DNA from: Flavobacteriales bacterium
GTDB lineage: Bacteria; Bacteroidota; Bacteroidia; Flavobacteriales; Flavobacteriaceae
Length of the DNA stretch: 44,952 bases
Assembly (NCBI GenBank): GCA_027065715.1
Contig: JAMONO010000045.1
Coordinates: 1 to 44,952, forward strand
Reading direction: 5' to 3'
This document shows, in pieces, positions 3 through 3,099 of this stretch. Under the pieces are notes generated by a model. That model had not been told where the DNA came from and ran no database searches. It was given only the letters and a program-made list of their open reading frames with translations. Both the position numbers and the translations under genes were made by a program. How positions within the stretch are numbered: position 1 is the first letter of the stretch; every line of letters begins with the position of its first letter.

Positions 3-1808
3 AATGTAAATAGTGCAAAATTGGTAGAGTTATACCAAAAACAATATAAGGATATCAGCTTAAATAAATTATTACCTGTTTCGATAAGACAAGCGTCAAA
101 AACAAAACAATTGGCAGATAATTATTTGAAGCACAAAACCATAGATTATATCAACACTCGAATAAAGGATTTAATAAATTTTCTTGAAGAAAATCAACAA
201 AAAGCCAAACCTTGGAAATATGCTTCCAAAAGAAAAATAGATGTAATATTACATTATTTGCACTACAAATTGCTCTATGATGTGTATATCAACCGGATTG
301 ATTTGGAAGAATATAATATGCCCGAAGATTATATCCGCCATAAATTTTTTAATATGAATACGTATGGCATTGCTCGTCAATATTTCAGATACTTTGGCAG
401 GTATGAAAACAATACTATTGATGAAGTGGAACAAAAAGCAAAAGAATTTGTATCGAAAACAGCCGTGGAACAATTAAAAGAAGATTACAAGCATTTGTTT
501 GATTATATAGCCCAAGGCATAAAATACAGCAAGAGCTTGGAAGATATCTTTCAATGGGTGGCGGATAGACAAATACGTGATTTAAAGGAAAATATTCATT
601 CCTTTGATCAACATGATTTCTCTCATTGGATGAAAGTTTTTAAAATTAATGATATTTCTACACCGGAACATGTAGATAAACTTTTGGATAATTTTTATGT
701 CCGAAGTTTTGCTTTGCCGGCTGACATTATTTCGTTGAAAAAAATATTTAAAGAAGAATGGCAACAATATAAAACCAAAAAAGAAGCGGAATTACAAGAA
801 AGAAAAAAAACGGCTTCCAATTTGAAAGACAAGAGTTACACATTTAATTATACCGATTATGCTTTCATAAGAGATTACTTATCAAATATTGATCCACCTA
901 ATACGAATATAGATTACATTTTTAAGGTGATTTTAAACAACAAGAAGCAAAAACCCACCGTTTACCGGCACTTGCTCAAACTGAAAACAGAAGAATTGGT
1001 TATGTGGAACATTGCCAAAACCTATTGGAAAAAAGCTAATGGTAAAGACTATTTGGCTTCACAGCTAAAAGGGAATGAAAAAAGTAAATATTTTATGGAT
1101 TATTGCTCTTTTAATAAGGTGTATAACCATGATTTAACCTATAAAATTACTATCGACGAAAAATTTTGGCATCAAAAGAATATTCATAAGTTTAGAGACA
1201 GTTATAATTTATTACCTGAAAACGATAAAACCATAAGTTTTACCATAAAAGTTCCGGCTCGCAAGTATGATAATAAACTTTTATCGGTAGAAACCGAATT
1301 GATAAAAGAATACGTGTTATGGCATCATTTGAAGACTTTGCTTGATACAGACAAGTTGCCTGAAAAATACAGGCATAAAGAATTTAGAGGCAGATTTTTC
1401 AATTTGAATAATTATGAAGATTTGATGAAAATGGTTCACAAAGAGTTGATACAATCCGTTACGGATATATTCCAAGTTTTGCGGGCTGAAAAACGCATTG
1501 TTGACAGCGATATAAATTATTTTATGCAGTTGTTGGAAAATAAATATAAAGATGTAAGTCCTATAACCGATTTTTATCTGACTATAACCGATAAAAAAGA
1601 TAAGCCGTATGACAGTAAATTATTTGAAGAGATTTTGAAAAAAGCCAATGAAACAACCCGCGAAGCCATAAAAGATTATATGATTAACTATCGTAATTAT
1701 GCTTTGCATTATCAATTACAAGATCCGGTAAGGAAAAAATGGATTTTAGATTTCCTAAATTTGATAAACGAAGGTATACTTGATGGTGAATTTTATACCA
1801 ATACTTAA
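3..1808 (+). CDS. Cas13-like type VI CRISPR effector, C-terminal part (runs off left edge)
   Basis: The frame is open back to base 3, so the true start lies outside the window; the TTG at 21 is only the first possible start inside it. About 600 residues are visible. They are Lys/Tyr/Asn-rich and helical-looking, with no signal peptide or membrane segment. The one clear motif is RNYALH (Arg codon 1692-1694, His codon 1707-1709), an R-X4-H HEPN RNase motif 32-37 residues before the stop. Cas13 proteins are known to carry two HEPN domains, the second near the C terminus; the first would lie upstream here. No RuvC or HNH signature was seen. Two CRISPR arrays start 126 bases downstream on the same strand. 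I infer an RNA-guided RNA-cleaving effector. Subtype is unresolved: the RNY..H[FY] context recalls Cas13a, while the short tail and the second array recall Cas13b. Another HEPN protein is possible. Confidence 0.62.
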   Translation, partial: NVNSAKLVELYQKQYKDISLNKLLPVSIRQASKTKQLADNYLKHKTIDYINTRIKDLINFLEENQQKAKPWKYASKRKIDVILHYLHYKLLYDVYINRIDLEEYNMPEDYIRHKFFNMNTYGIARQYFRYFGRYENNTIDEVEQKAKEFVSKTAVEQLKEDYKHLFDYIAQGIKYSKSLEDIFQWVADRQIRDLKENIHSFDQHDFSHWMKVFKINDISTPEHVDKLLDNFYVRSFALPADIISLKKIFKEEWQQYKTKKEAELQERKKTASNLKDKSYTFNYTDYAFIRDYLSNIDPPNTNIDYIFKVILNNKKQKPTVYRHLLKLKTEELVMWNIAKTYWKKANGKDYLASQLKGNEKSKYFMDYCSFNKVYNHDLTYKITIDEKFWHQKNIHKFRDSYNLLPENDKTISFTIKVPARKYDNKLLSVETELIKEYVLWHHLKTLLDTDKLPEKYRHKEFRGRFFNLNNYEDLMKMVHKELIQSVTDIFQVLRAEKRIVDSDINYFMQLLENKYKDVSPITDFYLTITDKKDKPYDSKLFEEILKKANETTREAIKDYMINYRNYALHYQLQDPVRKKWILDFLNLINEGILDGEFYTNT

Positions 1809-1933: not shown

Positions 1934-2455
1934 GTTTAAGTAGCCTTATAATTGATAGGTCAGTAAAACTTTAACTGCATCAAGTACTTCATCTATTCTA
2001 GTTTAAGTAGCCTTATAATTGATAGGTCAGTAAAACTTCGAGTATTGTTTCCCCGGCTTTCGTTCCACTGTTTAAGTAGCCTTATAATTGATAGGTCAGT
2101 AAAACGTTAATTCTGCGTTAAAAATAAATTGTTTCATTTGTTTAAGTAGCCTTATAATTGATAGGTCAGTAAAACTGTCCAAGTAAGTTGTACACCTTAA
2201 CAGAACTAGTTTAAGTAGCCTTATAATTGATAGGTCAGTAAAACTGTTTTCTTCGCCAGAGTCAGAAGAATTACCTCCGGTTTAAGTAGCCTTATAATTG
2301 ATAGGTCAGTAAAACTGAGAATAATACCCCTGCAGTTGATCTCTTATAAGTTTAAGTAGCCTTATAATTGATAGGTCAGTAAAACCATATGTACCAGTGC
2401 GTATTCTGTTAAGTGCATTGTTTAAGTAGCCTTATAATTGATAGGTCAGTAAAAT
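1934..2455 (+). CRISPR. CRISPR array 1: eight 36-base repeats, seven spacers
   Basis: Repeats start at 1934, 2001, 2070, 2140, 2209, 2280, 2350 and 2420. Each begins GTTTAAGTAGCC and ends GGTCAGTAAAAC. The first seven are identical and the last ends in T instead of C. Spacers are 31, 33, 34, 33, 35, 34 and 34 bases and all differ. Inside the repeat, CCTTAT can pair with ATAGG around an AATTG loop with one bulged T, and the ends GTTT and AAAC can pair. The terminal change and the position downstream of the effector suggest transcription to the right. Array status is certain; the link to the upstream effector is inferred from proximity. Confidence 0.97.
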
Positions 2456-2557
2456 TGAAAAAATGAATAATTTTTTATAGAATACGGAGATATTATTGTA
2501 TTTTTGCGCGATTTTTTTGTTCTAATTATTTGATAACCAATTAAATATCTATGTTGC
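2456..2557 (+). promoter_or_regulatory. Inter-array gap with a promoter element (leader of array 2)
   Basis: The 102 bases between the arrays contain TATTTTTG at 2499-2506, matching the Bacteroidota -7 element TAnnTTTG, 51 bases before the first repeat of array 2. A run of T around 2471-2476 sits where the -33 element would be but is not an exact TTTG. Together with the degenerate final repeat of array 2, this suggests a leader that drives array 2 to the right. Confidence 0.5.
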
Positions 2558-3054
2558 GTTGTAGTAGCTCGATATTTGAAGGGTAAAAACAACTAATGAC
2601 CGGTTACGGCTTGCAGATTTCAGTTGTAGTAGCTCGATATTTGAAGGGTAAAAACAACTAAACTGGTAATGTTACCGCCAAAATCAAAGTTGTAGTAGCT
2701 CGATATTTGAAGGGTAAAAACAACTCTGACGATGTGCAAGCACAATCTTCCATAGTTGTAGTAGCTCGATATTTGAAGGGTAAAAACAACTCTGACGATG
2801 TGCAAGCACAATCTTCCATAGTTGTAGTAGCTCGATATTTGAAGGGTAAAAACAACTAATCCTTGTGCGTCTTTTGGTGCTGTATCGTTGTAGTAGCTCG
2901 ATATTTGAAGGGTAAAAACAACTTAGTTGAATAAGCATAGGTGAAATTTCCAGTTGTAGTAGCTCGATATTTGAAGGGTAAAAACAACACACGCAGCAAC
3001 TTCGCTAACACAGGAATTGTTGTAGTAGCTCGATATTTGAAGGGTAAAAACAAT
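2558..3054 (+). CRISPR. CRISPR array 2: eight 36-base type VI-B-like repeats, seven spacers
   Basis: Repeats start at 2558, 2623, 2689, 2755, 2821, 2887, 2953 and 3019. Each begins GTTGTAGTAGCTCG and ends GAAGGGTAAAAACAAC; the last ends in AAT. Spacers are 29 bases (first) and 30 bases (the rest). Spacers 3 (2725-2754) and 4 (2791-2820) are identical. The GTTG/CAAC ends, the TTTGAAGGGT core and the 30-base spacers fit published Cas13b (type VI-B) repeats, where the repeat sits 3' of the spacer in the crRNA. The subtype call rests on remembered repeats, not on a search. Confidence 0.97.
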
Positions 3055-3099
3055 TGATTATAATTCATCATTCTTTCTTCATTCATGGACAAAAACATT

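Follow-up and report, generated by a model that had tools for sequence, protein, structure and literature searches.

A CRISPR array with a type VI-B-like repeat downstream of a probable Cas13h-branch effector gene in a Flavobacteriales genome

Introduction

The branch of type VI effectors named Cas13h (Hu et al. 2022, PMC9554183) was later counted within a broad Cas13b family characterized by a 3' repeat (PMC12165695). Eight Cas13h members have been described, and a review treats the in vivo processing of their crRNAs as an open question (PMC13288109). VI-B and VI-H are counted among the guide-repeat type VI systems, in which base pairing between leader and first repeat prevents a useless crRNA from being made (PMC13187072, 2026). 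The VI-B system of Flavobacterium columnare acquires 30-nt spacers by use of the II-C Cas1 in trans (PMC8092290).

We analyzed a 44,952-nt stretch of a Flavobacteriales MAG (GenBank assembly GCA_027065715.1, contig JAMONO010000045.1, positions 1 to 44,952; hereafter the window), in which the end of a large gene is followed by two CRISPR arrays, array 1 and array 2. When completed from a close relative (L015, described below), the encoded effector matches Cas13h1 (PDB 8wce; PMC9554183) over nearly its whole length, falls in the same clade, and has both HEPN RX4H motifs. The two are also similar in size and alike in that no cas1/cas2 is seen, but they are only ~30% identical, and the present locus may differ in having Csx27 upstream (in L015) and two arrays with different repeats; the sequence comparison covered the effectors. 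Type VI-B1 loci (csx27-cas13b-array, for example the control locus L025) share the gene order, the orientation, Csx27, the repeat family, the 36+30 geometry, and the downstream position of the array, whereas the effector examined here is unmatched by the NF038190 or PADLOC models, and its gene is separated from array 2 by a further, divergent array. F. columnare (PMC8092290) likewise combines, in one genome, a II-C system with cas1/cas2 and a Cas13 array lacking adaptation genes, and shares with array 2 the 30-nt spacers and the repeat size; it differs in having a classical Cas13b without csx27 and a single VI-B locus, and in the window's genome adaptation in trans is our interpretation. We assign a probability of roughly 0.72 to the reading that array 2 supplies the crRNAs of a type VI system of the guide-then-repeat kind, with the upstream, truncated Cas13 of the Cas13h branch as effector and Csx27 as its accessory protein. 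The locus is best read as csx27-cas13h-array-array, horizontally acquired and without cas1/cas2 of its own.

Results and discussion

The effector gene

The contig starts within the effector gene, which is truncated at base 1, and positions 3..1808 (+ strand) encode its C-terminal 601 residues. These matched Cas13h1 with a phmmer E value of 6.6e-18. A motif scan located the C-terminal HEPN catalytic motif RNYALH at 1692..1709 (+ strand), opposite RINVLH in the Cas13h1 sequence. The original prediction had noted that this end of the effector lacks the RNAF.H motif; RNAF.H is indeed absent, but RNYALH is present and is an ordinary RX4H HEPN motif. Among the matches listed in a scan of GTDB contigs was L015 (JAADEE010000122.1, 3,151 bp), a relative from another MAG that overlaps the visible effector over 355 residues (334 identical, 94%) and carries the N-terminal 589 effector residues, including RNYYSH. 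This N-terminal part matched Cas13h1 with an E value of 2.5e-46. The end of a csx27 gene lies 18 nt upstream of the L015 effector, and the csx27 fragment gave 78.8 bits with NF040557 (cut-off 65) and 1.8e-23 with PADLOC. The csx27 neighbor expected of a type VI-B1 locus is thus seen in the 94%-identical L015, and the corresponding region is missing from the window's assembly; we infer Csx27 in the window's own genome from L015, a different MAG. The missing upstream part was not found in the window's own assembly, the overlap with L015 comprising the first 217 bases only.

The window gene was joined to the L015 N-terminus at the overlap to give a composite of ~1190 amino acids, which contains the two HEPN RX4H motifs of a type VI effector, RNYYSH at residue 146 (from L015) and RNYALH at residue 1153 of 1190. 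In phmmer comparisons the composite matched Cas13h1 (E 1.9e-52) and no other Cas13 of the set. It grouped with Cas13h1 apart from Cas13b with a support of 100/100 in a tree with long branches, in which its deeper placement is unsure. The NCBIfam Cas13b model NF038190 gave no match to the composite at E values up to 10 and 789 bits for the control L025; the PADLOC Cas13b models likewise missed the composite and matched L025 strongly. Identity as a classical Cas13b is ruled out on the basis of these models. On sequence grounds, the visible gene encodes the C-terminal half of a Cas13h-branch protein, a divergent Cas13, and it is most likely the effector that array 2 seemed to lack. The view that the cognate effector of array 2 is not evident did not hold up, as the upstream gene matches Cas13h1 almost end to end and has csx27 upstream in L015. 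Of the options then offered, an unusual Cas13b comes closest: it agrees with membership in the broad, 3'-repeat Cas13b family, but the gene belongs to the Cas13h branch rather than to classical Cas13b. We also reject array 2 as an orphan with no effector in sight, since its neighbor is a Cas13.

The repeat of array 2

Array 2 (2558-3054, + strand) is a real CRISPR array of eight 36-nt repeats, GTTGTAGTAGCTCGATATTTGAAGGGTAAAAACAAC, the final copy of which ends in ...CAAT, and seven spacers of 29, 30, 30, 30, 30, 30, and 30 nt, giving a unit of 65-66 nt. Its extent, the GTTG/CAAC ends, the TTTGAAGGGT core, and the 30-nt spacers are all as originally described. The repeats are perfect apart from the final base of the last copy; because this degenerate copy is at the far right, the leader is assigned to the left, with transcription running rightwards. 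Spacers 3 (2725-2754) and 4 (2791-2820) have the same sequence, which suggests duplication of one repeat-spacer unit. The repeat was absent elsewhere in the 2.2-Mb, 175-contig MAG when searched at up to 3 mismatches, and an Rfam search gave no match. In both arrays the final repeat carries the same terminal C to T change and is followed by TGA (2455-2459 and 3054-3058).

A profile was built from nine repeats of Cas13 loci in other Bacteroidota genomes. The array 2 repeat scored 35.9, within the 18.7-40.4 of the members scored leave-one-out, and non-VI repeats, drawn from type I-B, III-B, and other non-VI loci of Bacteroidota and Rhodothermota, from the II-C array of this genome, and from one apparent type III array, scored between -23 and 0 at the register and strand that suited each best. 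Array 2 might instead target DNA, as an array of type II-C or another kind that resembles VI-B by chance; in favor of this, the II-C array of the genome has the same GTTGT start and 36+30 geometry. Against the type VI profile, however, the II-C repeat scored -9.3 in register and no better than -2.0 in any register, and the internal profile score of the array 2 repeat was reached by 0 of 20,000 shuffles. This explanation, which we consider extremely improbable, is already contradicted by the profile scores and by the Cas13 gene alongside.

Eleven aligned repeats, those of arrays 1 and 2 among them, share a two-stem fold in which 97% of cells are paired. Five pairs have changed on both sides, a level of covariation that none of 500 shuffles reached. 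The fold was destroyed by sliding the partner, a test that favors the unslid version because the structure was derived from the same 11 repeats. Pairwise, the Cas13 repeats have 17-30 identical positions, and those of arrays 1 and 2 agree at 24 of 36. The array 2 repeat thus combines the 36-nt length, the family profile, and the two-stem hairpin of a VI-B-type repeat. Its designation as type VI-B-like is supported by the profile, the fold, the spacer length, and the leader-repeat hairpin described below.

Array 1

Array 1 (1934..2455, + strand; eight repeats GTTTAAGTAGCCTTATAATTGATAGGTCAGTAAAAC, spacers of 31-35 nt) adjoins the effector gene and stands between it and array 2. With 16.6 on the type VI profile, its repeat outscored all the non-VI repeats compared (-23 to 0) and fell just short of the leave-one-out range; this value is near those of two repeats of Cas13b loci outside the profile (L060, 18.3; L061, 11.0). 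In both these loci, too, the array units are longer and variable in length, and the L060 array has a cas2 gene nearby. The tacit view of array 1 as something other than a Cas13 array fails on this profile (16.6 against ≤0).

A module on another contig of the genome (C174), type III-B with Cmr6, Cas6, RT, and Cas1, ends at the contig edge with its array not found, and array 1 might belong to it, leaving only array 2 to the Cas13. The array 1 spacers vary in length (31-35 nt) like those of type III arrays, and one apparent type III array has 34-37-nt spacers. The profile speaks against this assignment, with 16.6 for array 1 compared with -23 to 0 for Bacteroidota I-B/III-B repeats, including that of an RT-Cas1 III-B locus of Haliscomenobacter. 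In addition, the array 1 repeat can be fitted to the two-stem fold, its change at U4-A33 being compensatory, and the Cas13b locus L061 itself has GTTT...AAAC repeats in 67-69-nt units. We regard ownership by the III-B module as unlikely and think it likelier that array 1 is a second array of the Cas13 type than that it is type III. The candidate reading of array 1 as plainly type III for its variable spacers is likewise weakened by the repeat profile. In L060 (1768-3330) and L061 (1934-3250), both from Bacteroidales, homologous CorA-like membrane proteins of 520 and 438 residues are encoded beside cas13b; the repeats in the arrays of these two loci measure 35 nt, and the spacers are longer and vary in length. 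Partners of the CorA kind are more familiar from type III systems.

The leader of array 2

The leader of array 2 is assigned to 2456..2557 (+ strand), on the left side, as the degenerate last repeat is at the far right. A motif scan found one TAnnTTTG site resembling the Bacteroidetes -7 element (2499-2506) and no matching upstream element. A predicted leader-repeat hairpin at 2536..2584 (+ strand) would open the internal hairpin of the first repeat. The leader plus first repeat gave a predicted fold of -16.2 kcal/mol (z -3.3), reached by 1 of 200 shuffles; pairing within the first repeat was abolished by the leader in this prediction, and 0 of 500 shuffled leaders did as well. The prediction resembles the leader-repeat hairpin of type VI systems (PMC13187072), where the internal hairpin of the first repeat is likewise opened by the leader. 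In the same tests, the hairpin of array 1 was weaker and not significant. The hairpin was also not significant in five of six VI-B or VI-B-like controls (L025, L058, L061, L065, and L069), L040 being the sole positive in the short-leader test, nor was it significant for the leaders of L068, L070, and L071. In this short-leader test the absence of a hairpin means little, and its predicted presence in array 2 is supporting, not decisive.

Assignment of the arrays and proposed mechanism

Array 2 likely serves this effector, to judge from the repeat family, the gene order, and the orientation, and array 1 is probably served by the same Cas13h effector. In the control locus L025, csx27, cas13b, and an array with a unit of 66 nt follow one another in the same order. 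Our searches turned up no further Cas13h locus that has an array, so we pair the effector with the array 2 repeat by position and family resemblance; in L068, which represents the branch closest after Cas13h, the repeats are GCTG...CAGC. Against the pairing, it is array 1, also Cas13-type, and not array 2 that adjoins the effector gene, so that array 2 could belong to another Cas13, lost or unseen. Array 1 would then be the effector's own array, and array 2 an orphan from, or shared with, a second Cas13b-type effector that was lost or lies on a missing contig. Array 1 directly behind the gene occupies the usual place of the array in other Cas13 loci, its repeat is Cas13-type, and array 2 is nearer the classical Cas13b consensus than array 1. 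The tblastn search for the Cas13b family covered 42% of the genome; it revealed no second Cas13 in that portion, however, and the whole genome held no second gene matching this effector. Moreover, the intact-looking leader hairpin and the perfect repeats indicate that array 2 has not decayed. We judge such a separate owner of array 2, whether lost or on a missing contig, to be improbable.

Under the preferred reading, in which the Cas13h-branch effector uses array 2, the array would be transcribed rightwards from its leader, and the leader would pair with the first repeat such that no useless crRNA arises from it. The remaining repeats would each adopt the two-stem hairpin, be bound by Cas13, and yield a crRNA with the spacer 5' and the repeat 3'. 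The loaded Cas13 would find complementary phage transcripts and cut RNA by means of its two HEPN motifs, RNYYSH and RNYALH, while Csx27 at the membrane may tune the outcome. What is unusual about the locus is that behind a single Cas13 stand two arrays whose Cas13-type repeats differ. An apparent orphan array is thereby replaced by a rare Cas13h-branch locus with a probable Csx27 and two Cas13-type arrays, and two differing repeats beside one effector would allow testing of how much repeat variation a Cas13 tolerates.

Source of the spacers

No cas1/cas2 was seen near the locus. Contig C93 carries II-C-type cas1/cas2 with an array of 66-nt unit (36+30 geometry); the locus there (L014, 1-1850) comprises a II-C-like Cas1, a small cas2-like ORF, and, at the contig end, the array of 36-nt repeats and 30-nt spacers. 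By analogy with F. columnare, array 2 is probably fed in trans by the II-C adaptation genes, and new spacers would most simply be inserted by the Cas1-Cas2 of C93. The spacer length of array 1 may point to an adaptation source other than II-C. No type III array was found in the 42% of the genome searched. A quite doubtful proposal is that one Cas13h effector with Csx27 uses two arrays, array 2 fed by the II-C Cas1-Cas2 and array 1 by the RT-linked III-B Cas1; if true, one RNA-targeting enzyme would draw on both DNA- and RNA-derived memories. The locus would let one ask what adaptation machinery feeds an array that has no cas1/cas2. Protospacer searches gave no significant match in phages or plasmids and none convincing in the contigs of this genome that were examined, and six 20-mers from the spacers had no match in IMG/VR. 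On C174 (L013, 1-4880), a 485-residue protein with hydrophobic stretches is encoded between Cmr6 and Cas6 (903-2360); it had no Pfam, PADLOC, or NCBIfam match.

Relatives of the locus

The effector part of the window has a G+C content of 30%, compared with 36% for the rest, and that of the MAG containing L015 (G774) is 29-30%. Where other contigs of that MAG, in other respects a distant relative of the window's genome, could be aligned with the contigs examined here they were ~72-75% identical, whereas the effector is 94% identical, and the effector gene was absent from all 12 congeners. These sequence comparisons fit a recent horizontal transfer of the effector locus; alternatively, the short contig L015 may be misbinned in its MAG. 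Sister loci were found neither in 395 genomes of the order, nor in a search of 395 relatives with the 12 congeners among them, nor in IMG/VR, and GTDB contigs contained at least one (L015). Three further Cas13 loci, L070, L071, and L072, fall below the Cas13b cut-off and have GCTG...CAGC/CAGT repeats; their effectors carry the motifs RNAAFH, RNIHAH, and RNCAMH and form a separate, well-supported branch.
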